Source: Bacteroidota bacterium
GTDB lineage: Bacteria; Bacteroidota; Bacteroidia; Cytophagales; Cyclobacteriaceae
Direction: 5' to 3'
DNA length: 64,000 nt
Assembly: GCA_016191555.1 (NCBI GenBank)
Contig: JACPVX010000018.1
Coordinates: forward strand, 62,001 to 126,000
The first letter of the stretch is position 1; every line of letters begins with the position of its first letter. The notes under the pieces were generated by a model that saw only the letters and a list, made by a program, of their open reading frames with translations, ran no database searches and was not told where the DNA came from. Positions 8,377-44,918 of the stretch are shown piece by piece. The translations under genes and the position numbers were made by a program.

Positions 8377-8405
8377 CAGATGATTCTTTCTAAAGGAATC
8401 ATCTG
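8377..8405 (-). terminator. Perfect 10-bp hairpin between DUF2064 and TonB-receptor genes
   Basis: CAGATGATTC and its exact reverse complement GAATCATCTG are separated by a 9-base loop, between the end of the DUF2064 gene (8452) and the start of the receptor gene (8326). There is no long T tract directly after the stem, only a TTTTAAAATTAA stretch a few bases on, so it may be a terminator, a processing site or a leader structure of the receptor mRNA. Confidence 0.5.
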
Positions 8406-8451
8406 CACGTTGAAATTACATCAGTAGATGCCCAGCAGGCGTGGTTAAAAA

Positions 8452-24416: not shown

Positions 24417-25133
24417 ATGAAGAAAAGCGAGCAAACATTGACTACAGGTTTAGAGCCAGTTAGGGAGATAAATCCAAATTATCGTTCCTTAACGGGTGCT
24501 ATTCCAAGCCTAAAAAATAATCGTCTTAACAGGTTTGAGTCATCGCTTGAACGCGATTTCGCCAGAATCATTGAATTCGATTCGGCTGTTAAAGATTATG
24601 TTGAGCAACCTGTCGAGATAGAATTTTTGCATGAAGGCAAACAGGTTAAGTATGTCCCCGATTTTCTGGTTAACTACAAACACAGCATTGTGTCAGGAGT
24701 ATGGATTAAGCCCATGCTTGTTGAAGTAAAGTATCGAAGTGACTTGAAAGTAAAATGGAATGAGTATAAACCCAAATTTAGTGCAGCTATCAATTTTGCG
24801 AGAACCAGAGGATGGCGATTTAAGATAATGACTGAGGTAGAGATTCGTACAGAGTTTTTGCAAAATGCAATTTTTCTTCAACACTATAAAAAAGCTATGG
24901 TTAATGTTGACGATCGCGCAGTCATTTTGCGTGAAGTAGAAAAATTAGGTCTGACTACACCTAATGAGTTACTTGCCAATCTTACGAGTAATACTCAAAG
25001 ACGTGCTTCATTGTTGTATTGTTTGTGGCATATTGTATCTAATGCTGAGATAGGTGTCGACCTGGATAAAAAAATCAAAATGAATTCAGCAATTTGGGAC
25101 AACTCTAGTAATTCTAAGAATTTAGTATTATGA
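24417..25133 (+). CDS. tnsA: TnsA-type endonuclease (right module)
   Basis: 238 aa. Same catalytic layout as the left copy: E in SSLERDF, D in YVPDFLVNY and E-x-K in LVEVKYR, followed by the conserved WNEYKPKFSAAI and GWRFKIMTEVEI blocks. The stop codon overlaps the TnsB start (ATGA). The two TnsA proteins are clearly homologous but too different to be recent duplicates. Confidence 0.92.
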   Translation: MKKSEQTLTTGLEPVREINPNYRSLTGAIPSLKNNRLNRFESSLERDFARIIEFDSAVKDYVEQPVEIEFLHEGKQVKYVPDFLVNYKHSIVSGVWIKPMLVEVKYRSDLKVKWNEYKPKFSAAINFARTRGWRFKIMTEVEIRTEFLQNAIFLQHYKKAMVNVDDRAVILREVEKLGLTTPNELLANLTSNTQRRASLLYCLWHIVSNAEIGVDLDKKIKMNSAIWDNSSNSKNLVL

Positions 25134-26983
25134 CTTTTAATCTTTCCGCAGGTTCATTAGTCAAGTATCAAGGTGAAACATTTATCATCGTCAAGAACTT
25201 GGACACCAATTTTGTTCTTTTGGAAAACGGAGCAGGAAAAGTTGAACAAACTACGATTGACAAACTTGAACCTTTGACAGTTGAAACAGGAATAGAAATT
25301 TCAGCTCTTCGTCAAGAAGATTGGAATGAAGCTAAGAGAAGGTTTACCATAATTCAAAAGATCATTAATTCGGAAGATAGTCATGAAGCTATCATCAAAG
25401 CCGCACTCGATCACAAGGTAGGTGAATCTACTATTTATCGATGGCTAGCTAAATACAAAAAGACAAAATTAGTTTCCTCGCTCGCACCTTCTCCAAAGAC
25501 AGGTGGTAAAGGTAAAAGCCGACTGACAAATGACCTTGATGACATCATCAAGCAAGGAATTGATATTCATTATCTGGACAAACAAAGAAAATCAGTAAAA
25601 AAAGTCATAACAGAAATATCATTGGTCTGCAAGGAAAAAGGAATAGAACCACCACATTATAATACAATACGGGCTAGAATTGCGATGATATCCAATCGCG
25701 AAAAAATAAAAAGTCGATTGGGGCGAGAGGCGGCTAAAAAATCTTCTCCAAAAGTTGATCACTTTCCAGATGGCATTTTTCCTCTCTCCTCGGTACAAAT
25801 TGATCATACACCTGTGGATGTTATTGTTGTCGACGAGGTGCAAAGAAAGCCTATTGGTAGACCATGGATCACACTTGCTATCGATACCTATAGTCGAATG
25901 GTAATTGGCTTTTACCTTGGTTTTGAAAAGCCAAGTGCAATGAGTGTCGGATTATGTTTAGCGCAAGCCATACTTCCAAAAGAGGAATGGCTTGCCCAAC
26001 GCAATATATTTTCAGAATGGCCTTGCTGGGGCCCTATGAAAGTAATTCATATGGACAATGCTGAAGAATTCCATTCCGATATGTTAAAGGCGGCTTGCCT
26101 CGAATATCATATCGAAGCCAACTTTCGCCCTCAAGGTGGGCCAGAGTTTGGTGGTACCATCGAACGTATGCTGGGGACACTAAGTACGGAAATTCACTCC
26201 CTCGAAGGAACAACATTCTCTAACGTACAAGAAAGAGGCGAGTATGATTCAGAAGGTAAGGCGATCTTAACCATAAAGGAGCTCGAGAAATGGTTGCTGC
26301 ATCTTATCGTTGAAGTATATCCTAACCGCTTTCATTCCTCACTAAACAAAACCCCGCTCGCTAAATGGAAGGAAGGCTTGATTGGAGATTCAGAAAATGT
26401 AGGGGTTGGACTTCCACCTAGGATATTAAACAAACGAAAAGTATACATCGACTTCATGCCATTTGAGGAAAGAACAATCCAAGATTATGGTGTTATGATA
26501 GATAATGTATGTTACTATTCTGATGGCCTTCGCAACTACATTGATTTCACGGATTCTGAATCTGGAAAATTAAAAGCGAAGAAGAAGTTTATTTTTAAAA
26601 GAGACCCAAGAGACATCAGCACTGTTTATTTCCTTGATCCTGAGCGCAAAGAATATTTCCCTATTCCTTATCGCGATACCTCTAAACCAGCAATAACTAT
26701 TTGGGAGTTTCGAGCAGCGCGCGACCGACTTGTTCAAGAAGGGCGAGCTACAGTTAATGAAGACGCAATTTTTGCGGCATACCGACAAATGAAGGACATC
26801 GAACAGAAGTCATCTGAATCAACTAAAAAGCAAAAGCGACTTAACGCAATAAAGGCCCAACAACTGGACCATAAAAGCATTTTAATGGATTCGCCAACAC
26901 CACCGGATCCACCTGCTAGTGACTCGTTCGATGAAGTAATAGAGGCCTTTGAAGAAATTGACGATGCAACACCTTACAAATAA
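25130..26983 (+). CDS. tnsB: TnsB/TniA-type DDE transposase (right module)
   Basis: 617 aa. N-terminal helix-turn-helix KVGESTIYRWLAKYKK; catalytic residues D in QIDHTPVD, D in IHMDNAEEFHS and E in GTIERMLGT. The C-terminal beta barrel has the same RTIQ..GV turn as the left copy, and a Pro/Asp-rich tail closes the protein. The end overlaps the TnsC frame. Confidence 0.93.
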   Translation: MTFNLSAGSLVKYQGETFIIVKNLDTNFVLLENGAGKVEQTTIDKLEPLTVETGIEISALRQEDWNEAKRRFTIIQKIINSEDSHEAIIKAALDHKVGESTIYRWLAKYKKTKLVSSLAPSPKTGGKGKSRLTNDLDDIIKQGIDIHYLDKQRKSVKKVITEISLVCKEKGIEPPHYNTIRARIAMISNREKIKSRLGREAAKKSSPKVDHFPDGIFPLSSVQIDHTPVDVIVVDEVQRKPIGRPWITLAIDTYSRMVIGFYLGFEKPSAMSVGLCLAQAILPKEEWLAQRNIFSEWPCWGPMKVIHMDNAEEFHSDMLKAACLEYHIEANFRPQGGPEFGGTIERMLGTLSTEIHSLEGTTFSNVQERGEYDSEGKAILTIKELEKWLLHLIVEVYPNRFHSSLNKTPLAKWKEGLIGDSENVGVGLPPRILNKRKVYIDFMPFEERTIQDYGVMIDNVCYYSDGLRNYIDFTDSESGKLKAKKKFIFKRDPRDISTVYFLDPERKEYFPIPYRDTSKPAITIWEFRAARDRLVQEGRATVNEDAIFAAYRQMKDIEQKSSESTKKQKRLNAIKAQQLDHKSILMDSPTPPDPPASDSFDEVIEAFEEIDDATPYK

Positions 26984-27845
26984 CACACGGGATTTTTTGG
27001 AAAAATCGAATCCGGAAAGGATATCGTTTATACGTGGATATAAATGGATAGGCTACACTAGGGCTAAAGAGGCATTGAAAAAATTTGAAGACTTATTAAC
27101 CCAACCGCCAATTCCGCGGATGCCAAACCTACTATTGATAGGAGAAGGCAATAACGGGAAAACTAATTTGGTTGAACGTTTTCAGATGAATCATCAGGCT
27201 CGCATTGATGAGCAGCAAGATAAGGTTGTGGCCAAAGTAATGACCATAGATGCCCCAGCAGAAGCAGATGAAAAAAGACTTTACGAGAGAATATTGCAAG
27301 CTTCCTATACACCGTACCGCAGTAACCATAAAGCTGAAATTCTAAAGACACAAGCATGCGAAGTACTAAAATCGCTCGAATTGAGAGTTTTAATAATTGA
27401 CGAAATACACCACGTACTAGCAGGAAAGATTGGGAATAGACAAATTTTCTTAAATGCATTGAAGACTCTGGGCAATACACTTAAGATTTCAGTAATAGCA
27501 GTCGGAACTAAGAATGCTTTTCATGTATTTCAATCTGATCCACAAATGGCGAGTAGATTCGAACCATTTCCCTTGCCTCGCTGGCAGATGGATACAGAAT
27601 ATCAGCGTTTTTTGGTGTCTTACGAAAAACTTCTTCCATTAAAGAATCCATCAAATCTTGTTGACCGGGCAGTTGCTTCCAAAATTCTTTCTTTAACTGA
27701 CGGCACAATTGGCGGCATCGCGCGTGTGCTTCAGACCGCTGCCATAGATGCCATAGAACAGGGGACTGAGAAAATCACCTTGGACATTCTACAGTCACTG
27801 AAAGTACCGCTACCTGAAGATCGAAACCGAATGCCTGTAGTTTGA
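26949..27845 (+). CDS. tnsC: TnsC/TniB-type AAA+ transposition regulator (right module)
   Basis: 298 aa (an ATG at 26964 is an equally good start and removes five residues). Walker A GEGNNGKT, Walker B VLIIDEIHHV, then a sensor-1-like VIAVGTKNAF. The last 4 bp overlap the tniQ start, so stoichiometric translation is likely. Closest relative in the window is the left-module TnsC. Confidence 0.92.
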   Translation: MKKLTMQHLTNNTRDFLEKSNPERISFIRGYKWIGYTRAKEALKKFEDLLTQPPIPRMPNLLLIGEGNNGKTNLVERFQMNHQARIDEQQDKVVAKVMTIDAPAEADEKRLYERILQASYTPYRSNHKAEILKTQACEVLKSLELRVLIIDEIHHVLAGKIGNRQIFLNALKTLGNTLKISVIAVGTKNAFHVFQSDPQMASRFEPFPLPRWQMDTEYQRFLVSYEKLLPLKNPSNLVDRAVASKILSLTDGTIGGIARVLQTAAIDAIEQGTEKITLDILQSLKVPLPEDRNRMPVV

Positions 27846-28870
27846 TGACCACTAATGGACATACTCATTTTCAGCGTTTAGGTCGACCGCTTCTTCCGCT
27901 TTTAATTAAGCCTTTGCCAAACGAATTATTGAGCAGTTGGATTATGAGGTATGCAAAGGCATTGAAGACTAAATCCCATACTTTTTGCAAATTTATTCTA
28001 GCTGAGCAAAATGTTTGGAATGCAGACATCGATTTGTATCCATCAGAGAATTTTATAAAACAGTTTGCGCTGAAAGCTGGCATAACTGAAGAGCAAGTCA
28101 AAGCCACGACTTTGAATAGTTTGTATCCCAACCTATTTGTTGAGAGGTCAAACGTATGGTTTTTGCCAATTCGCATTTTTCATCGCACTAGGAAAGGAAA
28201 CGGCCAAATGGCGTGCCCTTCATGCTTGAAAAAGGACCCTGTACCGTATTTTAGAATATACTGGAGAGTCTCATTCATGGTGGCATGCCCAGAGTGTGAA
28301 TCGATGCTTATTGATCATTGTCCTAAGTGTGATTCTCCTATTGCTTTTCATCGTTTGGAGGTAGGAACAAAAGAATCTCCACTGGAGAAGGATATTTGCA
28401 TTTGTTACAAATGTGGTTTCGATTTGAGAGAATGTAAACCTATTCCATGTGAGAATAACCTTTTGCGACTTCAGAAGAGATTTAAGATACTCATGGAAAG
28501 AGGCTACGATCAGCAATTTCAATACTCGCATCTTTATTTTGAGGTGGTTCGACAAATAGCGTGGTTATTGGATTCGGCCACACCCAAACTTGCTGCCTTT
28601 AATGAACTAGTTTCAACTCAATCTGGAATCAATAGTCGGCAAACAAAAAAAACAGAATATCAAAAGAAGGATCTGGCTCAACGAGCACTTATTCTAATAA
28701 AAGTGGCTTGGATGTTTGAGAAATGGCCCCATCGCTTGATAGACGTTTCAAGAAAGACAAAGACATACAAAAGTTATCTGCTACGAGATATGGTGCATGT
28801 ACCTTACTGGTTTTGGAAGCTTGTGATTGAGAACTTATATGTACTCTATTCAGCCAAGCAAAAAAAGTAG
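27842..28870 (+). CDS. tniQ: TniQ/TnsD-type target-selection protein
   Basis: 342 aa. The N-terminal TniQ domain opens with RPLLPLLIKPLPNELLSSWI, the family start. Two zinc-binding knuckle groups follow: CPSC with CPEC, then HCPKC, CYKCGFD and LREC. A helical C-terminal part would bind the attachment sequence in TnsD-type proteins. The length is between short TniQ and full TnsD. As the module lies in comM, this protein may be what recognises comM. Confidence 0.88.
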   Translation: MMTTNGHTHFQRLGRPLLPLLIKPLPNELLSSWIMRYAKALKTKSHTFCKFILAEQNVWNADIDLYPSENFIKQFALKAGITEEQVKATTLNSLYPNLFVERSNVWFLPIRIFHRTRKGNGQMACPSCLKKDPVPYFRIYWRVSFMVACPECESMLIDHCPKCDSPIAFHRLEVGTKESPLEKDICICYKCGFDLRECKPIPCENNLLRLQKRFKILMERGYDQQFQYSHLYFEVVRQIAWLLDSATPKLAAFNELVSTQSGINSRQTKKTEYQKKDLAQRALILIKVAWMFEKWPHRLIDVSRKTKTYKSYLLRDMVHVPYWFWKLVIENLYVLYSAKQKK

Positions 28871-29278: not shown

Positions 29279-31156
29279 TTATTGTTTTTCAGGGTTGATT
29301 TGAAATTGAAACTGCTTTAAAAAATCACTGATTGAATAAAAAGTTGTGGAAGCACCATTTTTGAAATAATGATTCACGCAGGTGTATTTAAATCCGGCAA
29401 GTTCTTCTTCCGAATTCATCTGCTCATCTGTAAGCCAAACGCGAATATTAGTCGCGCAACAGTGTAAAACTTTCCTAACTAAATTGCTATTTAAACGCGA
29501 AGCATCATGATAATAAAGACATAGTATTTTACCACCAGTTTGTGATTTTTCATTTTTAGTTTTGATCCAGTCGAGAAGCATAAAAGATTTATCGCCCTTG
29601 CGTTCAGTGATTCTGACTGAAATAGCTGAACGCTCTCCAATCCACGATCCACGTTTACGACTGTATTCTGCACTACACCACTTATAGTTTTCACTAAACG
29701 GGCTGAATTTTAAAGGATTAAACCGTACGTAGTCTGATTCATTACTCGAAAATTTTTCTATGATAAATAAACCTGTCCTATCAAACATCGATATAACCTC
29801 GCGAAAATGTTGTTCATATTCATCTACCGATCGAATTTCCTTTGTGTCTCCATTTTCTTTTGGTTCTTTTGGCTCTTTTGTTTTAATGTCTGCATCTCCT
29901 GTACTTGGTTCATCACCTGCCACCGGGCAAACAGTGAAGTCATCTGGTTCAGTAGTTGGTGGAAATTTATTTTCCGGCTGACTTCGCGAAGTCTGTTCTG
30001 ATCGCTTTTTCTTTACCGCATTTGGCGCGTTTAGGAAACGATGATCAGTCACAGTGATGCTTATTTTTTTTGCGTTGTAATTTTTCGGCTTTCCAGAGCC
30101 TAAACTAGGATTAGTGCCATTCCCGCTTCCATTATTATTCCACTTTGAATTTGGCAAATCGTCCTTGCTGTTGGGGTCGATTAAATTACTATTTTCACGA
30201 TCGTATTCGATTTCTGAATAAGGGAAAGGTCCGGAGCAACTTATAATGTTATACACCAAAAATATTTTTTTATTGGTGAACTTGTTATCAAAACCATTTG
30301 CCTTGATTTCAGTCCCACAGATTTTCAGCTCGGCTTTTCCTTCGAATGGAAACTTGCAATCAGGATATATCTGCTGCTTATTCATCTTGGCGAGCTGCAC
30401 TGAATTATATACTGATTTTGCAGCCTTGAATCCAATGTCGCTGTAGGCGATGCGAGCTACAATTTTAATGTCTGTATCTGGAATCCTTGTTCGTAAGTAA
30501 ATGAATGGTTTTACTCCGTTGTCAATTTCTGATTTGGGTGTAATATATCTCGGATCATAAATTCTATTTGCTGGATCATGCAGTCCACCTAAATAGAGTT
30601 CCTGAGAAATGTCGTCCGAACCGCCAAAATAGAATCTAAATACTTCTTGGCATGGAACAATAATGAAATCATAATTTGAATCTTGTTCTATGCCTTTTCT
30701 TAATACTTGCACTTTTGCATCATGGAACATGATAAGCGGAAAGTCGTAGTTAAATAAAGTTTGAATTATACCATCATCGTTAATTCGTGATTTTTGCGTA
30801 AGATGAAATTCTTTGATTGATAGAGTTAAATTATTATTGTAATCAAGATTAACTTCTACTTTTTGGATGGGCATAAACTGCTTCGGTCGAGCAATTACTG
30901 TATCATTTTCAATGATGGATCCAATTGAGTATACTGGCGTATAGCCAACGTCAACTTGGACACGTCTGAATCCGCCTAAGTTTAATTGACTAATATGAGC
31001 ACGAAATTGATTTAATGGAATCTCATCTTTAATCGGATAAATTAGAAGATTGACCAGCGCCGATCCGAACGAAATTATTTCCTTCATGTCACCTGACCAT
31101 CCAATAAGCCACCTCTTTCCAGTTGAGTGAGTTTTGAAATCAGTAAGTTTTTCCAA
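29279..31156 (-). CDS. TnsE-like protein
   Basis: 625 aa. Not matched by a short motif, but the overall order resembles Tn7 TnsE: an N-terminal beta-rich part, a strand with FPFEGKAELKICGTEI, then a long low-complexity acidic linker (about 345-440, PKEPKENGDTKEI) and a C-terminal domain. That domain has a helix followed by GLFIIEKF, a strand SAISVRITERKGDKSFMLLD and the closing VNHYFKNGAS. Tn7 TnsE has comparable segments (QRNGSEFVLLEVD, VNHPKGLGE) in this order, from memory. TnsE targets replicating DNA such as conjugal plasmids. It is divergent from the ubiquitin-like operon. The alternative is an unrelated transposon-cargo protein. Confidence 0.5.
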   Translation of the reverse strand: MEKLTDFKTHSTGKRWLIGWSGDMKEIISFGSALVNLLIYPIKDEIPLNQFRAHISQLNLGGFRRVQVDVGYTPVYSIGSIIENDTVIARPKQFMPIQKVEVNLDYNNNLTLSIKEFHLTQKSRINDDGIIQTLFNYDFPLIMFHDAKVQVLRKGIEQDSNYDFIIVPCQEVFRFYFGGSDDISQELYLGGLHDPANRIYDPRYITPKSEIDNGVKPFIYLRTRIPDTDIKIVARIAYSDIGFKAAKSVYNSVQLAKMNKQQIYPDCKFPFEGKAELKICGTEIKANGFDNKFTNKKIFLVYNIISCSGPFPYSEIEYDRENSNLIDPNSKDDLPNSKWNNNGSGNGTNPSLGSGKPKNYNAKKISITVTDHRFLNAPNAVKKKRSEQTSRSQPENKFPPTTEPDDFTVCPVAGDEPSTGDADIKTKEPKEPKENGDTKEIRSVDEYEQHFREVISMFDRTGLFIIEKFSSNESDYVRFNPLKFSPFSENYKWCSAEYSRKRGSWIGERSAISVRITERKGDKSFMLLDWIKTKNEKSQTGGKILCLYYHDASRLNSNLVRKVLHCCATNIRVWLTDEQMNSEEELAGFKYTCVNHYFKNGASTTFYSISDFLKQFQFQINPEKQ

Positions 31157-31445: not shown

Positions 31446-31718
31446 ATGAGCACTGAGAAAAACCAAAATTTAATTTCGTTACGATTTGTAGTAAACGGCG
31501 AAGAGACGGTTGTTGAAAAAGTAAATATTCATCAACCGCTTAAGGTTGCCGCTGAGAAAGCCTTACAACAGACAAACAACACGGGGCGTGACCTGTCAGA
31601 GTTTCAGGCTAAGTACAATAACAATGATATAAATCTTAGTCACAAAGTAGAAGATTTTCACTTCCCAACAGATGCGACAATCTACCTGAGTTTAAAAATT
31701 GGTCAAGGTGGAAAATGA
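31446..31718 (+). CDS. Ubiquitin-like protein (DUF2604 type)
   Basis: 90-aa beta-grasp protein. It begins with a strand LISLRFVVNGEE, a helix PLKVAAEKALQQTNNTG and ends IYLSLKIGQGGK, which matches the DUF2604 family of bacterial ubiquitin-like modifiers (single domain). The di-Gly is G88-G89 with one extra Lys after it, so removal of K90 by the JAMM peptidase encoded two genes downstream would be needed to expose the conjugation-competent GG. It overlaps the next gene and is the first gene of the operon. Confidence 0.85.
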   Translation: MSTEKNQNLISLRFVVNGEETVVEKVNIHQPLKVAAEKALQQTNNTGRDLSEFQAKYNNNDINLSHKVEDFHFPTDATIYLSLKIGQGGK

Positions 31719-32298
31719 TTTTCAATACTCTTCTGTTGAAGTCACCAAATTAAAATTTGGGAAAGAGCTCGACTCCTTTAAAAAATTAGCCAATGACTGG
31801 CGTGCAAAGGGAGTATTCTTAGTGAAGGACGAATTTCCTAAGCTTGAGTTTATTTTTACTTCTCCTAAGCTAACACCAGCATCGGTGGTGTTCTGCGCGC
31901 AGATAGATTTCACAAACTATGATACTGAGCCCTTATCAATTCAATTTATTAATCCGTTTACGTCAACTCTTCTGACAAGGAAGGAGATTCCGATCAATTT
32001 TTGGCAAGTTAATTTGCCTCAAAATTTTGTACCAGGAAGCCCCATAGCCCCTCTTGATCTTTTGCAAGGGCGTCCTGATGACATTCCATTCATTTGTATT
32101 CGAGGGGTTAGAGAATATCACAATCATCCTGCGCATTCCGGAGATTCGTGGTTTCTTTACAGGACTCGGGGTGAAGGAAAGTTAGGCTTCATATTAGACC
32201 AATTGTATAATTTCTCCATTGACATCTTGCAGAATTACAACATCGACTTGCAGTTCTTAATTAAGTATGCACAGATGCCAAAGGTTAGCATGCCTTAA
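31708..32298 (+). CDS. E2-like ubiquitin-conjugating protein (prokaryotic E2 family)
   Basis: About 196 aa from GTG 31708 (a TTG at 31699 is possible). Placed between a ubiquitin-like protein and JAB/E1 genes, it fits the prokaryotic E2 families, whose sequence is too divergent for certainty by eye. The likely active-site Cys is in PFICIRGVREYHNHP, followed by a HPAHSGDSW segment as in this group. The start overlaps the modifier gene by 11 bp and its stop touches the JAB gene start. Confidence 0.7.
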   Translation: MENDFQYSSVEVTKLKFGKELDSFKKLANDWRAKGVFLVKDEFPKLEFIFTSPKLTPASVVFCAQIDFTNYDTEPLSIQFINPFTSTLLTRKEIPINFWQVNLPQNFVPGSPIAPLDLLQGRPDDIPFICIRGVREYHNHPAHSGDSWFLYRTRGEGKLGFILDQLYNFSIDILQNYNIDLQFLIKYAQMPKVSMP

Positions 32299-32787
32299 AT
32301 GAATTTTAAATTGATTCGAAATATTAGGATTCCGGACTCGTGCATTGCCGAGGCCTATAAGCACATCCGCTTAGCCGGATTGAAACGGCTGGAAGGAGTT
32401 GTTTTATTTGCAGGCAGTTATCACGAAGGTGAATTTATGTTTGAGGTAAAAGAAACTATTGTTCCTAAACAACTTAGTGTTAGTTTAGAAGACGGATTAC
32501 TTTACGCGGTCGATGGAGATGAACTACATCGAATTAATGTCTACTTACATATGTCCGGTCAGACTCTTTTGGCGCAATTACACAGTCACCCAACTGAAGC
32601 CTATCATTCACTAACTGATGACGCTTACCCAATTGTCACCAAAGTGGGAGCATTGAGCATAGTAGTTCCAAATTTCGGTATGGAAGAATTTGCTCTTGAT
32701 AAGTGGGCTGTTTATAGATTAGACGATGAAGCTAATTGGGAAGAACTCGCAGTAGAAGATGTTAAAAAACTAATAACAGTTATTTGA
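32299..32787 (+). CDS. JAB/JAMM-type metallopeptidase (deubiquitinase-like)
   Basis: 162 aa. The zinc site is visible as LHSHPTEAYHSLTDD (HxHP ... S ... D), with a candidate catalytic Glu in the first third (GVVLFAGSYHEGEFMFE). In bacterial ubiquitin-like systems this peptidase trims the modifier and removes conjugates. It starts one base after the E2-like stop and overlaps the E1 gene by 4 bp. Confidence 0.88.
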   Translation: MNFKLIRNIRIPDSCIAEAYKHIRLAGLKRLEGVVLFAGSYHEGEFMFEVKETIVPKQLSVSLEDGLLYAVDGDELHRINVYLHMSGQTLLAQLHSHPTEAYHSLTDDAYPIVTKVGALSIVVPNFGMEEFALDKWAVYRLDDEANWEELAVEDVKKLITVI

Positions 32788-34316
32788 GAATGGCTCTTGC
32801 AAAATATTTTACTAAGGATCTACTAGCAATCAAACAAGTATTTAGCCAAGGCTCCAGAGAGAAATTTGAACAACTATTAAATAGTCATGTTGTTGAAATA
32901 GCTTTTGATGATGAAGTAAGTAAAATGGAAGTCCAATCATTGCTTGACTTGCTGGTCAGACTTACAAGCAGACTTTATCCGCAGTTAAAATTTTCATATT
33001 TGGGTAAAGAAAAAGGATCAGCAATAATTTCAGATTATATAAAAAAGGCAAAATCGATAAACTCTCAAATTGAAATCGTTGACTCAGCTTCTTCATTCTC
33101 CATTATTTTAGGAAGGACACCTGCAGGTGTTGAAGGGAAGAGAATTTATGTCGGGTCTGATGGATGGAATGCAAAACTATCGACTATTAATCCAGTAGGA
33201 TGTGGTAGCTCTATGAACCCTTTTGGAGCCGGTGTAGCTGCATGTCTTGCATCTTCAAATGCATTCCGATATGTATTTCAGGAATTTATCGGTCGGTTAG
33301 AAATGGATGATGAAGTGGTTTTGGATGTCTCCAATTTAAATCAGGGGACTTCAAATAACGATTTCCCGGAAATAGACTTAGGAGTCATTCACCTTGTAGG
33401 TATGGGTGCTATTGGCAACGGCTTTTTGTGGGCATTCTCAAAAATGCAGAATTGTCAAGGTGTCTTGAAAGTAATCGATGATCAAACTGTATCGCTGTCA
33501 AATCTGCAGAGATATGTGTGTACTGATGAACTAAGTATAGATAAAGTAAAATCAGCCTTTGCAAAGGAATTCTTGAAGGCCAATTCAATAATCACTGAGC
33601 CTTACAATATGAAATGGGCAGGGTACGTGGCAAAAACAAATGAAGGAAACATCGATATGGTTGCAGTTGCTGTCGATTCTGCTAAAGACAGGATCGGCAT
33701 TCAAAGTTCACTTCCACATAGAATTGTTAATGCATACACTGAGAACAATATTACAGGGATTACCAGGCACTTAAATTTTGGTGTTACCGCATGTCTAGTT
33801 TGTGGTTATATTCCAGAAAAGAAAATGAAGGATTATTCGCAAGAAGTTGCAGATAACTTAGGCATACCAAACCTTGAAAATCAAGTCAGGCACTACATTG
33901 CCTATGATTATCCAGTTGACGATAACTTACTCATGTGGATATCGCAGGGTAACGGAATTGGTATAGAGGATCTTTCTAAATTCAGAGGGCAGCGATTTTC
34001 TAATTTTTATTCCGATGCAGTTTGTGGTGGGGTTTTGCTTTCTCTTACTGGGGCCACCCAAAATAATTCAAAAATGGAGGCTCCGCTTGCTTTTCAATCA
34101 GCAGTTGCCGGAATTCTGTTAGCGTCTGAAGTAGTCTTGTTAAAGTTGGGGGCGCGCAATGAGCAATTTCCAAACAGCTCGCAGCTATACCCACTTTTAA
34201 AAATTAAGTCATCAACCAATCCTTACAATACCCAACTATCCAGAGACTCTTCTCAACGATGTATTTGCTATGATAAGGACTTCAAGTTGGTTTATGACAA
34301 AATGTGGAATTCGTAA
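32784..34316 (+). CDS. E1-like ubiquitin-activating enzyme (ThiF/MoeB fold)
   Basis: 510 aa. The adenylation domain has the nucleotide motif VGMGAIGNG at about 205-213 and IDDQTVSLSNLQRYV, the ThiF signature with the R finger. Cys residues in CLVCGYIP could be the zinc site or the thioester Cys. The N-terminal 190 residues form an extra domain, so the protein is longer than minimal ThiF. The end overlaps the next gene by 13 bp. Confidence 0.88.
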   Translation: MRMALAKYFTKDLLAIKQVFSQGSREKFEQLLNSHVVEIAFDDEVSKMEVQSLLDLLVRLTSRLYPQLKFSYLGKEKGSAIISDYIKKAKSINSQIEIVDSASSFSIILGRTPAGVEGKRIYVGSDGWNAKLSTINPVGCGSSMNPFGAGVAACLASSNAFRYVFQEFIGRLEMDDEVVLDVSNLNQGTSNNDFPEIDLGVIHLVGMGAIGNGFLWAFSKMQNCQGVLKVIDDQTVSLSNLQRYVCTDELSIDKVKSAFAKEFLKANSIITEPYNMKWAGYVAKTNEGNIDMVAVAVDSAKDRIGIQSSLPHRIVNAYTENNITGITRHLNFGVTACLVCGYIPEKKMKDYSQEVADNLGIPNLENQVRHYIAYDYPVDDNLLMWISQGNGIGIEDLSKFRGQRFSNFYSDAVCGGVLLSLTGATQNNSKMEAPLAFQSAVAGILLASEVVLLKLGARNEQFPNSSQLYPLLKIKSSTNPYNTQLSRDSSQRCICYDKDFKLVYDKMWNS

Positions 34317-35173
34317 AAAGCGTAGACCTAGAAAATTCGATGGAGTATGCTTTAAGTGGTGATTTGAGAACTAACCTGATGGGATTCAGGAAGCTCGTGC
34401 ATCTTTACGATCTTGTATCACAATATGAGGGTAGCCGATTGAAACTAAATTTTGGTAAGATTAATTTTTTTGATGCGAACATGTCAGCTGTTCTGTTGGC
34501 GATGTTGCAGAAATTGGAAAGCGATAACAACAATAAAATCATTATAGACTACGATCAAATTGATCAGAACTGCGAAGTGCTAAGAAGAAATGGCTTTGTT
34601 TCACATTTGAGTAAAACAACTGAGGTTGTAGAAGATATCAGGAAATCTACCGTTCCGCTCAAAACATTCAAATCAACAGATGCTGATGCTTTCGTATCTT
34701 ATATCGAAAATGACTTTTTAAAGCACCGAGGCTTAGATGGCCATCTTTCCGAAAGTGCCTTTGGGAAAATAAAGGATAGCTTTTTAGAAATATTTTGCAA
34801 CGTTGAATTGCATTCAGAAACAAATCGTCCCATGTATACATGCGGCCAGTTTTATCCAACCAAGCAAGAGTTTAAGTTTACGGTAGTAGATGTTGGAGTA
34901 GGCTTTTTGAAGAATATTAACAAGAAGGACAGGGCAATCTCCACCTACGAGGAAGCGATAGATTGGGCGGTAAAAGGCAATTCAACTAAGAAGGGCACTA
35001 CTCAGGGAGGAACTGGATTATCTACAATACTGAGGTATTGTAGATCCTCGAAAGGCGAAATTCACATCGTTTCGGGGGATTGTTACTGGCGATTCAATGG
35101 AAAAGAAATAGAAAAGTACAGCTTGAATAAGTATTTTTGTGGCGCAACAGTGCACCTTATCTTTCGTTATTAG
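34304..35173 (+). CDS. STAS-like plus GHKL ATPase protein
   Basis: 289 aa, GTG start overlapping the E1 gene. N-terminal half (about 1-115) reads as a STAS-type fold with LKLNFGKINFFDANMSAVLL, the region where anti-sigma-antagonist-like proteins carry a regulatory residue. The C-terminal half is a GHKL ATPase: N box in FLEIFCNVELHS (about 160), G1 DVGVGF (about 200) and G2 GGTGLST (about 235). No histidine-kinase H box is present, so it is likely an anti-sigma/switch-type ATPase, not a sensor kinase. Confidence 0.8.
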   Translation: MEFVKSVDLENSMEYALSGDLRTNLMGFRKLVHLYDLVSQYEGSRLKLNFGKINFFDANMSAVLLAMLQKLESDNNNKIIIDYDQIDQNCEVLRRNGFVSHLSKTTEVVEDIRKSTVPLKTFKSTDADAFVSYIENDFLKHRGLDGHLSESAFGKIKDSFLEIFCNVELHSETNRPMYTCGQFYPTKQEFKFTVVDVGVGFLKNINKKDRAISTYEEAIDWAVKGNSTKKGTTQGGTGLSTILRYCRSSKGEIHIVSGDCYWRFNGKEIEKYSLNKYFCGATVHLIFRY

Positions 35174-35206
35174 TAAACTATTTTGTAATTTCACTACATT
35201 AGAGCC

Positions 35207-35554
35207 GTGCAAGAAAATACCCCATCTATTAATGTATCAGATGCCATTGGCACATCGAATGCGATTCTCCATTCCTTTGGCATGACCGTATATGACACCG
35301 CAAAACCGCTTGTGCAAGAAAATAAGCCTGTTATTATTGATTTTAATGGAATCAGAAATTTAACGTCAGCTTTTTTACATGCCTCAATCGGTAACTTAAT
35401 GACGGTAAACCCCAACAGTATTCACCTTATTACTGTAAACGGCCTAGCAAATCCGGAATGGAACGATAAACTGCAGGACGCAATTAAATTGGCATTAAAC
35501 CCAGAAAAAAGGGATGCTATTGCATCTGAGTTGAATGAACTATTCAACAGTTAA
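35207..35554 (+). CDS. STAS-like DUF4325 protein
   Basis: 115 aa, GTG start 33 bp after the STAS-ATPase gene. It resembles DUF4325: PVIIDFNGIRNLTSAFLHASIG is the core strand-loop-helix, where the loop Ser/Thr residues would be the phospho-acceptor in classical STAS switches. The C-terminal helix is acidic. DUF4325 genes are often paired with GHKL ATPases, as here. Its last base is the first base of the PIN gene start codon. Confidence 0.75.
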   Translation: MQENTPSINVSDAIGTSNAILHSFGMTVYDTAKPLVQENKPVIIDFNGIRNLTSAFLHASIGNLMTVNPNSIHLITVNGLANPEWNDKLQDAIKLALNPEKRDAIASELNELFNS

Positions 35555-36195
35555 TGGCTGTTACCATCCTAGACATTTCAAAGGTTTTCCCTAAAACCTA
35601 CTCCTATTACTTCTTCGATGCAAATTGCTGGGTAACTCAATTGCTATACACTAGCGGAACCCTTAATCAGGTGCAAAGAAATCAGCCGCAGAAATACGTC
35701 AATTTTTTTTCTAGTGTAATTACGGCTGCAACTTCTCATGGCAATAAACCAACTGCCAATAAACCAAAGATAATTGTTACAAGTCTTCTTATATCTGAGA
35801 TATTTAATGCTTACATGCATTTGAAGCACTCTGTTTATCAAAAAGTAAATCCAAACTGTAAAAAATTCAAGAAGGATTATAGGCCGACAACCGACTATGA
35901 AAAACAGACCAAGACTCTAATTTCTGACTTCGAAGCGTTCAAAGACTATGTCCTTATCGAATCGGACTACGTAAAAGAGATAGATCCATTTACGTTATTT
36001 CAATCGGTGTCATCAACTAATGATTTCAATGACGTTTTTCTTTATTTTCAATTAAGAGAGATAAAGAGAAATATAAATCCAATTGCCATTGTCACAGACG
36101 ACTCAGATTTCGTTTTTGAAGGAATTGATATAATCACTGCAAATACTACACTACTCGGCTTGAATAAAAACAAGAACTCTTCTCACAAAAAATAA
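35554..36195 (+). CDS. PIN-domain-like protein
   Basis: 213 aa. PIN-type acidic residues are in the usual order: YYFFDANCW (first Asp), SLLISEIFNAYM (Glu), FTLFQ (weak position) and AIVTDDSDFVFEGI (late Asp pair), followed by the ITANTTLLG strand. PIN domains are Mg-dependent RNases. The start overlaps the DUF4325 stop, making it the last gene of the seven-gene operon and a plausible effector. Confidence 0.7.
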   Translation: MAVTILDISKVFPKTYSYYFFDANCWVTQLLYTSGTLNQVQRNQPQKYVNFFSSVITAATSHGNKPTANKPKIIVTSLLISEIFNAYMHLKHSVYQKVNPNCKKFKKDYRPTTDYEKQTKTLISDFEAFKDYVLIESDYVKEIDPFTLFQSVSSTNDFNDVFLYFQLREIKRNINPIAIVTDDSDFVFEGIDIITANTTLLGLNKNKNSSHKK

Positions 36196-36406: not shown

Positions 36407-38335
36407 ATGAGAAATTCAGCAAGGAATTGGACGCTGGGTAACTTAAAGCTTGACGATATTAAATCGATTGTAAAACAAAGGTTCAATCCTGAGGTTTTCA
36501 AACCCGACGCTTATTGGATGATTTATTGGGTCGATCGATATTTCGTTGATGGCAAAAATAACCTTTTGTTCAATGCATTGGTTGTTGAGGTAAAATACTT
36601 CAACTTCCGGAATCTTGATTTTTCAAAAGCACAGATGGTGCAACTTCCTCTTAGATTGATTAGGATATTGCCCTCTGGAACAATTATAAAGGATGGTGTT
36701 GTTCTTTTCAAAGCGCAAAAGAATTATTTACGTAAGAGAACGATAACCATCAACTCTCTTACCCTAAACCATCTAGAACTTCATCAATGGAAAAATTATC
36801 GAGACCTTATGTATGCACTTGGTTTTGCAAAATTTGATAGAGTAAAAACAGCAGACTTAACAAAATTGACAGAATTCAGCCCGCGTTCAAGAATTTATGC
36901 ATTCGATATCAGCTTAACTTCTAGGCGATTTAATAAAGAGTACATTGTATTTCAAGATGCTGATCTTGCACGATTCTACTGGTTCACTTCAACTCGAATG
37001 ATGCAGGTGTTGCTCACCCCTGGAACAGTGTGCAAACATCAAAATCGATTATGGGTGCCAAGCTCAGTTGTTACCCCGACTATTGCAGATCGACATCATT
37101 ACTTGCATATTCGTGATCAGATGTATCTCAGAGATGCCCACGTTATTTCAAGAATCGCTTTTGACGATACTGCATCCCAGTCTGCTAAGCTCATATCAAC
37201 ATCAGTATTGAACCGAGAAATGGAAGGTGGGAATAATAGTTCATTTTATCCTAAAACGGCTTTCCCGTTCAAAGGGTCAAGTAAAATAAGCTTTTACTTG
37301 ATTGATCTGCGGATAGAGAAAACAAAGATAACTTTGGTTCTTGAAATGTCCAGTTGTTCAGTGGAATTGCCGTTTAAATCACTAAGGTACGATCGTGAGA
37401 CAGAAGAGGTTGTTGAAGATTTGACTAAGAAAACAAGTGGTGAAAAGAGAACTTTCATTAATAAACCAAAAGAAACAAAAAATACCAACGATAACGATCC
37501 TGAGGACGACTTTAAAGAAGGAACAGATTTTTCTAAATATGATCCCTTGTTTGACAAGGATAAGTTTGACGATGGACCAAAACCAACTTAACGATAGACA
37601 AGTAAAGAATGCAAAAATTATTGACCGAGGCCGGCGTTTTTCTTCTCTACCGGAAGACATTAAGCGTCAGAAGAGAATAAAACTTGTACCGCCGAAAAAA
37701 AATTACCGTCTATAATACGTAAGGTTGGGAATATCTCAACAAATGAAGGTACTACCAGCCAACCGGGTAGTACTGGCGAAGCCGTGGTGCCGGAAGAAAC
37801 CTCGGAAGACAAGGATAGAAAAGACAAAAAGGAGGGTAACCCTAAAAGTAAGGCTAGTTTGAGTTTATTTGTAAAGGAAATGGCAGCAGAGTTTAAAAAA
37901 AGAAGTGCTGCTGTTCGGTACCATAATTTTCATTCTGATTTTGGTGAAGAGTCATTTTGTGTTGTTATGCTGAGTCCTCCTGATGAATCGAAAAATCAGG
38001 AAAGGAAATTTGCAACTATAGACAATAGATCCCGGTGACTGATTCTTTTATACGTTGAATATAAAGGCTACAATTTTTTGCTTTGCGAGTTGGAGCCAAA
38101 GAACAAAACGCAGCAGACCTCCCTGAAAGTGTTAGTGAAGTTGAAGCCCACCGATAATTCCATGAGAATATCCAAGAAAGATGCAGAGATAGTCAGGTTG
38201 GCTGTAATCTCGTCATACGGTAAATTGACTTCTATTTCGAATTTTAAGACTTATAAATTCAATCATGGACATGGTACTGGCGCTCAATACGTGAACAAGA
38301 TTTTGAGTAAAATATGCCCAGCCGAGAAAGATTAG
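36407..38335 (+). pseudogene. TnsE-like gene, decayed
   Basis: Fragments in two frames together resemble the TnsE-like protein at 29279-31156. Part one (36407-37591) has FPFKGSSKISFYLI followed by SLRYDRETEEVVED, matching FPFEGKAELKICGTEI and IEYDRENSNL there. Part two begins with an ATG at 37572 in another frame (GRRFSSLPEDIKRQKR, matching DHRFLNAPNAVKKKR). After an A8 run at 37695-37702 the frame changes again to an acidic linker and KASLSLFVKEMAAEF. An in-frame TGA at 38036 then interrupts the C-terminal domain, which continues LILLYVEYKGYNFLLCEL to 38335. At least three lesions separate the pieces. Confidence 0.5.
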
Positions 38336-39560: not shown

Positions 39561-40115
39561 TCAGTAGTTTGTTTTCTTCATATCAAATTTATCTTTTATA
39601 AAATCTTCCACCTTATTATAATTCGGGAGACGGCCGCGCTGTGATTTAATTATGTGGATACTGTAGTCAGCCTCTGCTGCTGTTAGCTTCCCCTTGAGGA
39701 ACCCCACGGCTAAAATATCCATTGTAGTTAGATACTCGATTTCAAATTCCTTACAATATGGTTCAATGTCGCTCAGGTTGTTACTTGCAATTATATTTTT
39801 TTGAAACCTACATACTGCCATGCATGCGCTTTCACCTTTTCCTTTATCTTCTCTCTTTAATCGATTGTATTCAGTTAATATTTCACTACTTGATGTAGGA
39901 AACGTCATCTCCCTCAGGATACCAAGTTTGATTATAAATTCTAGTTGTGATGAAGCGAACGACTTCAGCTCCTCCATTACCACATCTAGAATTAGAACCC
40001 GGCCAGGGTATAATTCTTTAAGAAGACTCAATCTTTCTGCCCTAAAAAGATGAAAGATCACGTCGGCATCAATAAGTATCAGTTTTTCATGCTCTTCCGT
40101 TTTCATCGTCCGCAC
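39561..40115 (-). CDS. PIN-domain toxin-like protein
   Basis: 184 aa. PIN residues: LILIDADVIFHLF (first Asp near residue 18), VVMEELK (Glu), GKGESACMAV (second Glu) and IIASNNLSDI (late Asn/Asp). The start overlaps the ImmA-like gene by 29 bp. A PIN RNase coupled to an ImmA-XRE pair looks like a toxin controlled by a peptidase-regulated repressor. Confidence 0.78.
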   Translation of the reverse strand: MRTMKTEEHEKLILIDADVIFHLFRAERLSLLKELYPGRVLILDVVMEELKSFASSQLEFIIKLGILREMTFPTSSSEILTEYNRLKREDKGKGESACMAVCRFQKNIIASNNLSDIEPYCKEFEIEYLTTMDILAVGFLKGKLTAAEADYSIHIIKSQRGRLPNYNKVEDFIKDKFDMKKTNY

Positions 40116-40845
40116 TTTGATCTAATGGATTAAAACCTATCGCACCCATTAATTCGAGATAATGGGACTCTGAAATCTTATCTACTTCTAAAAGTTTGTT
40201 GGCAAGAACGCCGTAGTCGCCTATTATTTCATTTGCGTTGCCTCGTTCGTATAAATGCGTAGGGTAACCATTTTGCCTAGCTCCTTTCATTACTGTTTTT
40301 AGGTACTCGTCATACTTTGCCTGTTTAATGAATTCCAGATTGAAAAGTCTATACAGTAAAGCTCGGCGCGATACACTGTAGTAGTTCTCTATCTTAAGTA
40401 TGGTTTGTAGTGTAATGTCAGCCCCCCGTTTGAGTTCTTCATCAGGTATCATTTGTTTAATACCTTCTTCAGGTAACAATAGAAATGCAGCGAACAAATC
40501 TGCTCGATATTCTTCAGGGTCTTTCGCTCCATCGAAGATGCCGACAGAACATTTTTGTGATATGAAGTTTTCTTGAACGAAAAGATGGTATAACTCGTGA
40601 CCAATTGTGAAGTGCTGCTTGCCCAGACTCTGCTCACTATTAACCATGATAAAGCGGTTTTGGTCACTTGTCTTAAGTGCCATGCCTGAAAATGACTCTG
40701 ACAAAGGCTTAAATACTGTCAGTACATTATTTTTCAACAAAAGGCTTTTCAAGCGAATGGGTTCAGCACTGCTGAGCCCATTCAATTGCCTGAAAGCAAA
40801 GGCTTTTTTTTCAATCTCAAGCTCGATGGCTCTGTTCTTTCTCAT
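40087..40845 (-). CDS. ImmA/IrrE-family metallopeptidase
   Basis: 252 aa. Zinc-peptidase motif H83-E84-L-Y-H87 in IGHELYHLF, with the third ligand in the EEYRADLFAAFLLLPEE helix. In ImmA/IrrE pairs the peptidase cleaves the partner XRE repressor; here the XRE gene overlaps by 29 bp just upstream. The C-terminal 90 residues are a helical region of unknown role. Confidence 0.9.
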   Translation of the reverse strand: MRKNRAIELEIEKKAFAFRQLNGLSSAEPIRLKSLLLKNNVLTVFKPLSESFSGMALKTSDQNRFIMVNSEQSLGKQHFTIGHELYHLFVQENFISQKCSVGIFDGAKDPEEYRADLFAAFLLLPEEGIKQMIPDEELKRGADITLQTILKIENYYSVSRRALLYRLFNLEFIKQAKYDEYLKTVMKGARQNGYPTHLYERGNANEIIGDYGVLANKLLEVDKISESHYLELMGAIGFNPLDQSADDENGRA

Positions 40846-41182
40846 TGCTCAATCGTTTCAGTTTGAGATAATTTTTTACAACCTTCTGAAAGCTGCCTAT
40901 GCTTTGAAGGTCTGCTGCTGATAGCCCATCGGTGCGAAACGCGAAGGCAAATGATGCCTGTTGCTCGACTGATGGTTCTTCGGCAGTCAAATCAGCTACT
41001 TCCACGCAAAATAAATCAGCCAGTTTTTCGAGATGAATTAGGGGGATTTCTCGCTGAGCTGTTTCGTAGTAGCTGATTACCGGTCTGCTCACTCCTAGGT
41101 ACATTGCGGCCTCTTCTTGTGTGAGACCCCGTTTTTCACGCAATGCAGCTAGGTTTTTGCCGATAATAGTGTTGTAGTCCAT
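40817..41182 (-). CDS. XRE-family HTH repressor
   Basis: 121 aa. Cro/CI-type helix-turn-helix at about 8-60 (LAALREKRGLTQEEAAMYLG, then SRPVISYYE). The C-terminal half (AEEPSVEQQASFAFAFRTDGL) is the part an ImmA peptidase would cut. It heads the operon XRE-ImmA-PIN-membrane protein-HNH, and a palindrome lies about 20 bp before its start codon. Confidence 0.92.
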   Translation of the reverse strand: MDYNTIIGKNLAALREKRGLTQEEAAMYLGVSRPVISYYETAQREIPLIHLEKLADLFCVEVADLTAEEPSVEQQASFAFAFRTDGLSAADLQSIGSFQKVVKNYLKLKRLSNEKEQSHRA

Positions 41183-42052: not shown

Positions 42053-42727
42053 TTAAATGGGGTTTTTGTTTTCACGGGATACTATTTTTTTCCGTAAAAA
42101 AGCATGATAACTAAATGGAGCACCGAAGAATTTCAAATTTGACTTATTGAATATGTCAGGTTTTATTGTTGGATTGGTTAGTTTACTTAGTTTTTTCTTA
42201 AAGTCTTTAACAACTTTCGTTCGATTGGTATCAAGTATTCTTAGTTGCCTTAAAGCTGTTTTTGATCCGTTTAACGCTCTAAATCCATTAACCCAACATA
42301 ATGTTTGACTTCTCTCTTCGAAAATACTTATCCTTCCGACAGACATGCTTATAAGCCGCTGCTGCAGAGCAAATACCTGCTGCCTTTTTGATTTTTTAGA
42401 AGTTGCATTCAAGGAACTTTTATCCAGATTTAATGCTGTTAGAACTGTTTTACTTTCTTCTTTTTGTTTCTTCAATTCTTTTTTGATTGATTTCCATCGT
42501 ACACGTATTGATCCATCATACTTAATATTATACCCCACAAAAGATAACCATGGAACACAAGGTTCACCTTTACTTCGAGCTCCCCATTTGTATGGCTTCT
42601 TCGATTTCAATTTCTTACCCCAGAATTGCTTGGAGTATTCATCAAATGATTGAGGCTCGTGAATAAGGATTTTCAGTTCTTTGATCTTTGATTTGTAACG
42701 TTCAAGAGCATTCTCACCTAAGTCCAA
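42053..42727 (-). pseudogene. Reverse transcriptase, C-terminal part (gene broken)
   Basis: Frame starting with GENALERYKSKIKELKILIHEPQ, the helix that normally follows the YxDD motif in defence-type (UG/Abi-like) reverse transcriptases, then KKPYKWGARSKGE, PWLSFVGYNIKYDGSIRVR and a basic alpha-helical thumb/C-terminal domain. It overlaps the N-terminal fragment by 14 bp in another frame. It lacks its own palm catalytic site. Confidence 0.75.
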
Positions 42728-43655
42728 TCTCTTTTTGTTCCGGGTAAAAGCTAGTCAATAGCTCTTCTTCAACCCATTTAAAGTTACAACCAAGCAGTTT
42801 ATCTTTGAAATAGCCACTTTTATTTAAGGGATAAACATCTTTACTGAAACTGTAAGAGTCTAAGTATTGCTTAAAGAAAGTGACGGCGGTTGGATGTACT
42901 ATTACTTGATTCCGTTTCTGGAATTCATCAAACGCATTAAGTATTTCAATATGATTTAGGCAATCATAAAATTTTTGGATGTCGCACTCTGAAGCGTACA
43001 CATCTTCTGATTGATGCCTGGATCTATATTCGCATAGTTTAAGTATTGTATCATGATGGGTTACTGGAGATTTTTTCCCTTTCACAGACCTAAATGCATA
43101 TGAGCAATCTAAAAAATACGGATCAAACAAATCCGTAAGATATTTAGCGGTCTGACTAATTATTATTTTGTCTTCCAGATCATCGTAAAGTGAAATGGGT
43201 CTACATTCATTACATGAAGGCGTATTTTCCTTTAAAATGGCTACTATTTTTGGTTGTTTTATTGATTCTTTTGATGGATTGCTAATTCGTTCATTTATCC
43301 TTTTTAAAAATTCGTCGAGCTCTATATACCAATCTGGTTTGGTAGTGATATTGCTTTTTATTCTAAGTCCTTCAGTTTTTATCGTTTTATTAATTGCATA
43401 CTCTTGGAGCTTTTGAGAACTCGCGAATTTTGCTCTTTCGTCTTTGTTTGGCTTATACCATTTCCTTCTCGGTGGTAGCAGCTTTGTAATTTCATTTGGG
43501 GTTAAGCACTTCTTTTTAAAGTCTTCTATTGTTTTTTCAGACTTGCTGATATCAGCTAAGAGATGGGATTTATGACGATCTAGCGCAACTTTAGCTCTAT
43601 ACTTGCACAGTAGCTTTATGACATTTGCAGGTTGGAAATAATCTTCAAATTTCAT
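42714..43655 (-). pseudogene. Reverse transcriptase, N-terminal part (gene broken)
   Basis: 313 aa. RT motifs seen: an N-terminal extension, then CRPISLYDDLEDKIISQ (RT2-like block), DPYFLDCSYAFR and YASECDIQKFYDCLNH, the palm region with the first catalytic Asp. It then runs KEIGLR and stops, where the PQGG and YxDD motifs should follow. The rest of the protein appears in the next frame without those motifs, so roughly 80-90 codons have been deleted out of frame. Homology places it in the unknown-group/Abi RT types that act in phage defence, by general resemblance only. Confidence 0.8.
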
Positions 43656-43862: not shown

Positions 43863-44918
43863 TTATACATTGAATAACAATCTAGCGAGCATAAATCCGA
43901 TAGCAATACCAAGAAGAATTAGCATGGTGAGAAAGGTTTTATTTTTCTTCTGTTCTAGTATTCTCATCTCATTACTTTTCGCAAGTTCTCTGTCTTTTTG
44001 ATTCACTATTTCCTTGAGTGAATTAAGTTCTAGTGAGTATGCTTTCCGAAGGCTAGATTCAACGCTTGCAATAACTTCGCTCTTTGATTTGTTGATTTCG
44101 TCAATCGTTAAATTGTAAAGTTCTCTGAGAAATCCGCCAAGTGCCGTGGGTGTACTAAATGACCGATCCGCAACCTTGTCCAATAAGCTGACGTCCTCGC
44201 GGTGTCCTATAGCAGTAACCACTATTGGCTTAAGCATTATGGCAATTCTGGCTATTTCTAAATTATTAAAGACTTCAAGATTTTCACCACCTCCTCTTGA
44301 AATAACGATAACATCGGATTCACTGTCTATTTGCTTTAGTGCCATAGCTACGTGGGAAGCCACACTCATGTTTACTCTAATGAAAGTTGGATCAAAGAAA
44401 TTTATTGTTTCCCCTAACGCATGTAGTATATCCTTATCGATGATTGAGGTAGAGCCAATTAATGCTATAATCTTAGGTTTTCTGTCTTCAATAATGCATC
44501 TTTTAATATGATCTTCTAAGTCACGATAACCTAAATTAGATTTAGCTCGCTGGATATCCAGTGACAGACTATCACGCTCTGAAAATTGTGGTGCAACTTG
44601 ATCGTATAGTTCCGATAAATTCAAATTGAGTTTGATATTACCTTTATCATCAACTCTTCGAGTAATAAACCCATTGAATTTAATTACTTTTCCTGGGGTG
44701 AGTTTTTGCCTTATGATTGCTGGAACAATCAAAGTTAAATTTGATTCAGTTCCCTCTTCAAACAATTGATCATAATAAAATCCTCTATATTCATTACCAT
44801 TTCCGGGAATGTATAGACCTTTTATATCTAAGAGAATTCGCTCCTCGTTAACTTTCAGGGCATTGTTAAACAAATTGAGAATTGCCCTGGTAGTATAAAA
44901 GGAAGTTTTAATTTCCAT
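43863..44918 (-). CDS. XseA-like (exonuclease VII large-subunit-like) membrane-anchored protein
   Basis: 351 aa. The middle (about 145-270) has the XseA nuclease-domain pattern: VIVISRGGGENLEVFN, then PIVVTAIGHREDVSLLDKVA and RSFSTPTALG, as in the exonuclease VII large subunit. The N-terminus is a divergent OB-like region and the C-terminus has a coiled coil and one transmembrane helix (about 330-348). Normal XseA is soluble, longer and paired with XseB; neither applies here. It is upstream of the RT on the same strand. Confidence 0.7.
   Translation of the reverse strand: MEIKTSFYTTRAILNLFNNALKVNEERILLDIKGLYIPGNGNEYRGFYYDQLFEEGTESNLTLIVPAIIRQKLTPGKVIKFNGFITRRVDDKGNIKLNLNLSELYDQVAPQFSERDSLSLDIQRAKSNLGYRDLEDHIKRCIIEDRKPKIIALIGSTSIIDKDILHALGETINFFDPTFIRVNMSVASHVAMALKQIDSESDVIVISRGGGENLEVFNNLEIARIAIMLKPIVVTAIGHREDVSLLDKVADRSFSTPTALGGFLRELYNLTIDEINKSKSEVIASVESSLRKAYSLELNSLKEIVNQKDRELAKSNEMRILEQKKNKTFLTMLILLGIAIGFMLARLLFNV

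Follow-up and report, generated by a model that had tools for sequence, protein, structure and literature searches.

How many systems are encoded by the seven tightly packed genes found at 31446-36195 of the window analysed here, i.e. the whole stretch of 64,000 nucleotides corresponding to contig C83:62001-126000 (JACPVX010000018.1) in a 4.1 Mb Cyclobacteriaceae genome (GCA_016191555.1, phylum Bacteroidota) rated 77% complete? A first-pass annotation had suggested one undescribed system, in which, for example, a ubiquitin-like conjugation cassette controls an ATPase and a PIN nuclease. We regard it as very probable, instead, that two complete operons stand here in series, BilABCD and then VapKSC, probably forming one transcriptional unit, and that they belong to the defence cargo of a Tn7-like transposon sitting in comM: this reading is based on gene content, family identity, intact residues, the mobile context and the fact that each half is also found where the other is missing. 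Neither half is new: genes 1-4 correspond to BilABCD and genes 5-7 to VapKSC, published in June 2026 by Chambers et al. in EMBO J (PMC13373217), so that the trio was rejected as an undescribed system. The pairing is unusual, and is seen nowhere else in our sample.

The seven open reading frames (ORFs), all open and on the forward strand, are separated, from gene 1 to gene 7, by a 20-bp overlap, 0 bp, a 4-bp overlap, a 13-bp overlap, a 33-bp gap and a 1-bp overlap (Table 1), which confirms the initial description of seven adjacent, overlapping or closely set genes on one strand. The 13-bp overlap between bilD and vapK requires a GTG start of vapK at 34304; with the ATG start at 34340, a 23-bp gap is found instead. 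Neither gene 5 (vapK) nor gene 7 (vapC) has a credible Pfam match when searched singly, genes 1 and 2 (bilA and bilB) have no PADLOC match, and the Pfam Prok-JAB match of bilC (E 0.003) lies below the Pfam cut-off.

Judging from their sequences, genes 1-4 are a complete BilABCD operon for ubiquitin-like conjugation: gene content and gene order, on one strand, agree with the bacterial ISG15-like antiphage operon represented by PDB 8tyx, 8tyz and 8u38. Profiles made of the window protein and three rhizobial proteins matched 'Ubl(BilA)' (8tyx_A and 8tyz_B, E 1.2e-48 and 9.9e-48), 'E2(BilB)' (8tyz_C, E 1.3e-108) and 'E1(BilD)' (8tyz_A, E 7.7e-282), and a seven-row BilC profile matched 'DUB(BilC) E33A Mutant' (8tyx_B, E 4.6e-78). 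The E-values of these profiles are inflated by the closeness of the rhizobial rows to the solved proteins; a conservative value is available for BilD, the one protein for which the window sequence by itself also served as query: E 2.2e-97 against 8tyz_A, over residues 3-507. The match to 8tyz_C bears out the label 'E2-like' previously given to gene 2, and the notion of a mere metal-binding protein, suggested by the Pfam name, was rejected.

The residues checked in this half are kept. The CEHH motif of BilB (C133-E139-H141-H146) is invariant in all 4 rows, with the same spacing as in the reference protein, where it reads C138/E144/H146/H151 (PMC11354881). In BilC, the JAMM residues E32, H95, H97, S104 and D107/D108 are invariant in 7 rows out of 7, and in BilD the same is true, in 4 of 4, for the adenylation residues G206/G208/G211, D232, N240, R243, K256 and D298, as well as for C414 and C337/C340/C493/C495. 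The Pfam Prok-E2_C match of bilD, the E1 gene, is N-terminal, in a region described as an inactive adenylation domain (PMC11354881). The assignment of genes 1-4 to a conjugation operon of the antiphage kind, already made in the first-pass annotation, was thus upheld, with the checked catalytic residues intact.

Some differences from the described operons were also found. Window BilD is about 37% identical to rhizobial BilD, a value read from the top-scoring E1 proteins of the plasmid collection; at the three rhizobial plasmid places that were opened, the four bil genes occur in the same order without genes 5-7, while in the window VapKSC lies directly downstream. Window BilA, a single 90-aa domain, ends in ...GQGGK, one residue beyond Gly-Gly, in contrast with the two-domain BilA described in PMC11354881; the solved 8tyx_A is also short (98 aa) and was matched over its full length, so that two domains are not a feature of the whole family. 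Frames of 476 and 458 aa matching the BilA profile were observed elsewhere (L146:978-2405 and L147:9037-10410): some BilA proteins may have long N-terminal extensions, or the start of these frames may have been over-called. Upstream of bilA the window carries FL1, a divergent gene of an unknown family, and not the divergent pair, a helix-turn-helix (HTH) gene and an IrrE-type peptidase gene, seen just upstream of bilA in two other Bil loci (L061:5356-6245 and L065:5605-6473, the HTH of the latter recognized by eye); this pair resembles the placement of CapH and CapP at other defence operons. No viral relative was found with the E1 profile in the viral contig collection, and no paper on DUF2604 in the open-licence literature.

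Genes 5-7 are, by the same kind of evidence, predicted to be a complete VapKSC operon. This three-gene defence operon of a kinase, a STAS antitoxin and a PIN toxin, known in 289 instances, protects about 2 logs against phage Bas42, and the crystal structure PDB 9z7o, from the same work, is that of VapSC, the complex of the antitoxin VapS with VapC (PMC13373217). Fourteen-row profiles, with the window protein as first row, matched 9z7o_A 'Escherichia VapS' (E 2.9e-33) and 9z7o_C 'Escherichia VapC' (E 4.6e-34), and the three window genes lie in the published order. The GHKL motifs of VapK (E162-N166-H170, D196-G198, T228 and G236-G238) are invariant in 13 rows out of 13; between its N-terminal region and STAS structures the alignment is weak (E 0.07), and a relative (L007) passes the Pfam cut-off for STAS. 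In VapC, where the acidic set of the PIN domain is kept, D22, N24, D157, D160, D183 and D185 are invariant in all 14 rows, and E82 is found in 13 of them. The phospho-acceptor position of VapS is Ser54, Ser or Thr in 14/14 rows, matched by alignment to 9z7o_A, where the Escherichia S48 was located by counting off the tag of the construct; a phosphomimic at S48 abolishes VapC binding and inhibition (PMC13373217). With its 115 aa, window VapS has a length compatible with the C-terminal helix that inhibition requires. The earlier view of the last three genes, a PIN nuclease governed by a switch kinase, is correct, while the proposal that conjugation controls the ATPase and the PIN protein is unsupported: in the published operon, control of the toxin lies with the kinase and the STAS protein. 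In contrast with the described VapKSC system, the window copy lies directly behind a Bil operon, with no upstream region of its own.

A different role for the kinase and its partner would be that of a transcription switch, similar to CapK/CapS and responsive to DNA damage, acting on the whole operon, bil genes included. The pair is of the same type, a STAS-GHKL kinase plus a STAS partner, and CapKS are found upstream of Bil and Bub operons elsewhere (PMC13373217). However, CapK has an N-terminal HTH and CapS a C-terminal winged HTH (wHTH) (PMC13373217); Pfam finds no HTH on the 289-aa VapK, and neither a wHTH nor any other DNA-binding domain on the 115-aa VapS. Moreover, the window pair lies downstream of Bil, its lengths match those of relatives within trios, and a PIN toxin gene comes next, as in VapKSC. 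Membership in CapKS was rejected, and such a switch is extremely unlikely.

Relatives of window VapK were found in 31 of 395 genomes sampled from the phylum, own genome included. The 35 matching rows stand for the window and 33 other places, one of them accounting for two rows; of these places, 20 were considered with larger context and 13, mostly weak matches, with short flanks only. Iterated profiles detected all three vap genes at 17 of the 20; the other three are L121, with vapK and vapS only, and L118 and L119, with a VapK-like gene beside TnsC. The two weakest matches of a further search (G746 and G767) were left out. Farther away, a Deinococcus plasmid carries an HTH gene followed by ATP-binding, STAS-like and PIN genes in series, a Streptococcus prophage has vapKSC between a regulator and the integrase, and the operon was also seen on five IMG/VR contigs and, in E. 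coli, beside tail genes. Searched alone, the window PIN protein had no match in the plasmid or phage searches, and the window ATPase had no relative in the viral contig collection.

Co-occurrence of the two halves was evaluated from both sides. BilD relatives were collected by one scan of one genome per species over 84,980 species, which finds only relatives keeping one of two short peptide patterns, and resulted in 62 loci (25 clusters at 95% identity), 7 of them titled as Bacteroidota members; 3 further places came from 394 other genomes of the window's class. In the DNA covered, at least 2 kb downstream for 61 of the 62 loci and only 0.8 kb for L060, none of these 65 places outside the window has vapK, vapS or vapC beside BilD. 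The vap sample contains 32 places with all three genes, 26 plus 6 more in the window's family, and takes in the Deinococcus plasmid, the Streptococcus prophage, the five IMG/VR contigs and the E. coli place: four places with a split gene are included (vapK in L106 and L107, vapC in L127 and L171), while L121 and the VapK-like genes next to TnsC in L118, L119, L164 and L166 are not. Profiles for E1, E2 and Ubl, and tblastn with the four window Bil proteins, detected Bil genes at 0 of the 32, the absence being weak evidence for short or cut contigs (L076 of 3.0 kb, L123 of 5.2 kb, L124-L127). Within the sample covered, the window alone shows the seven-gene order, no other genome keeps the halves side by side and the trio mostly occurs alone, the last two being outcomes that the first-pass annotation had itself named as refuting its reading. 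No paper on a Bil-VapKSC pairing was found in the open-licence literature; among the 289 vapKSC loci published as Dataset EV3 there could be one with a Bil neighbour.

The mobile context is provided by comM (TIGR00368), found in three pieces on the contig and interrupted at two positions by two Tn7-like elements, C83:52700-85715 and C83:86325-129936, which occupy positions 1-23715 and 24325-64000 of the window. The second element, of 43.6 kb, contains the seven-gene locus, 2.6 kb after TniQ. Short repeats are present at both ends of each element, TGCCC in the first and GGTGG in the second, the register of the latter being ambiguous, as the target reads GGTGGTGGTGG, a GGT run. comM is a known target of Tn7-like elements of the Tn6022 type (PMC10293859), and Tn7-like elements are known to carry defence cargo (PMC8649781). 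The window elements resemble them in TnsABC plus TniQ, the comM target, short target duplications and defence cargo; what sets them apart is that a single comM has been entered twice, at different positions.

Since both halves sit in a Tn7-like transposon together with other candidate defence genes, their adjacency is best read as cargo stacking, and functional coupling is unsupported. A composite system may be imagined, where BilA conjugation acts on VapS, VapK or VapC, for instance to release the toxin, or where VapKSC is a fail-safe for a failed or inhibited Bil. The genes do overlap or nearly touch, and the published survey lists five Bil operons preceded by the related STAS/GHKL regulators CapK and CapS (PMC13373217); the arrangement, however, recurs at none of the 65 BilD and 32 vapKSC places, and window VapS, with its 115 aa, has the same length as stand-alone VapS (107-125 aa over 14 rows), with no sign of adaptation to Bil. 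We consider such a composite unlikely. Equally doubtful is its variant in which one promoter drives Bil and an RNase triggered by DNA damage, and BilA conjugation tunes VapS or VapC, resulting in a two-step response of tagging and growth arrest.

For two stacked operons, the following mechanism may be proposed. BilC would trim the modifier after its glycines, BilD would activate it, and BilB would attach it to targets. In published work, the Bil targets are phage structural proteins. In the other half, VapS would keep the PIN RNase VapC inactive until single-stranded DNA (ssDNA), from infection or DNA damage, activates VapK; the kinase would then phosphorylate the conserved Ser/Thr of VapS, Ser54 here, and VapS would release VapC, which would cleave RNA and stop growth. 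Activation of VapK by ssDNA is inferred in PMC13373217 from CapK, a model and a mutant. Each half would act on its own, sharing at most a promoter upstream of bilA: both co-transcription and independence in this host are inferred.

Some points weigh against stacking of two independent operons. If vapK starts at GTG 34304, its frame begins inside bilD, which leaves no intergenic room for a separate promoter, and such tight coupling may reflect selection for co-operation. A scan for Bacteroidota-type -7 motifs found none before vapK and none before bilA, and decides nothing either way. The scarcity of Bacteroidota among the Bil loci and the pattern-limited scan imply that a rare, lineage-specific partnership could be missed. 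Finally, the counterpart in window VapK of F54, a residue of the published protein for which contact with ssDNA is proposed, is uncertain: the column of F55 has F or W in 11/13 rows, while a rival column, that of V63, has F only in the rows nearest to E. coli. On the whole, the locus adds members to both BilABCD and VapKSC, and two separately described antiphage systems, back to back in a mobile defence island, offer a natural test of the independence of stacked systems.

Table 1. Features of the seven-gene locus and of its surroundings (window coordinates, unless a contig or locus is given)
Feature	Coordinates	Strand	Description	Evidence
bilA	31446-31718	+	90 aa; ubiquitin-like modifier, one DUF2604 domain	Pfam DUF2604, E 1.6e-15
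bilB	31699-32298	+	199 aa; E2-like conjugating enzyme	Pfam Metal_CEHH (PF14455), E 5.5e-41
bilC	32299-32787	+	162 aa; JAB/JAMM deconjugase	PADLOC BilC, E 2.7e-14
bilD	32784-34316	+	510 aa; E1 activating enzyme	Pfam Prok-E2_C + ThiF; PADLOC BilD, E 1.7e-14
vapK	34304-35173	+	289 aa; predicted STAS + GHKL kinase	Profiles of relatives, position in trio
vapS	35207-35554	+	115 aa; DUF4325 STAS-like antitoxin	Pfam DUF4325, E 1.2e-10
vapC	35554-36195	+	213 aa; PIN-domain RNase toxin	Profile of relatives
TnsA	24417-25133			Pfam TnsA_N
TnsB	25130-26983		Mu-type transposase	Pfam Mu-transpos_C
TnsC/TniB	26949-27845		TTG start	Pfam TniB
TniQ	27842-28870			Pfam TniQ
FL1	29279-31156	-	Unknown-family paralogue; directly upstream of bilA, divergent	
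FL2	36407-38335	+	Unknown-family paralogue; changes reading frame	
Third FL paralogue	C83:52829-53740		Left end of element 1	
HTH / IrrE-type peptidase / PIN-like	39561-41182	-	Overlapping genes	Pfam HTH_3; PADLOC capP, E 7.5e-25
UG39-type (DRT) reverse transcriptase	42053-43655	-	Two ORFs	PADLOC RT_UG39
Exonuclease VII large-subunit-like protein	43863-44918		Beside the reverse transcriptase	
TnsABC + STAS-GHKL	L119:5021-9325		Own genome, contig C16	
TnsABC + STAS-GHKL	L118:8392-12834			
TnsABC + STAS-GHKL	L164:8758-13077			
TnsABC + STAS-GHKL	L166:about 4630-8893			

The state of the surroundings might suggest that the seven-gene stretch is decaying, non-functional cargo, as some neighbours look broken (FL2 changes frame and the reverse transcriptase is divided in two ORFs) and comM itself is split in three. 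With all seven ORFs open and the checked residues intact, this is very unlikely. FL1 and FL2 flank the seven-gene cassette; their family has matches in 2 of 395 genomes, own included, two of the paralogues have no Pfam or PADLOC match, and FL1 has no credible match among solved structures. In the group at 39561-41182, which resembles either a pair of regulators of the CapH/CapP type or a set of toxin and antitoxin genes, the PIN-like call was made by eye and from a weak PDC-S70 match. Further cargo of the second element includes matches to the PADLOC candidates PDC-M30/M41.

A separate lead comes from four genomes of the window's family, own included, where a Tn7-like TnsA-TnsB-TnsC operon is directly followed by the gene of a VapK-related STAS-GHKL protein of 283-306 aa. 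Three of these operons have two divergent genes upstream, one of them of the IrrE type. In the own-genome copy TnsA, the transposase and TniB are recognized by Pfam, while HATPase matches to the STAS-GHKL protein are weak. By eye, three of the four proteins show the GHKL N-box and the first Gly motif, and the fourth is more degenerate; the second Gly motif seems to be missing, and the proteins are apparently degenerate. Their gene occupies the place held by TniQ in the window's element; no TniQ was matched beside the four operons with window TniQ as query, a search that a divergent TniQ could escape. The words GHKL, HATPase and STAS are absent from the available part of PMC10293859. Since ssDNA activates CapK (PMC13373217), one may guess that the protein directs transposition towards ssDNA or senses damage. 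This lead may be more novel than the cassette, and would matter more if the protein proved to select targets or to sense damage for transposition.

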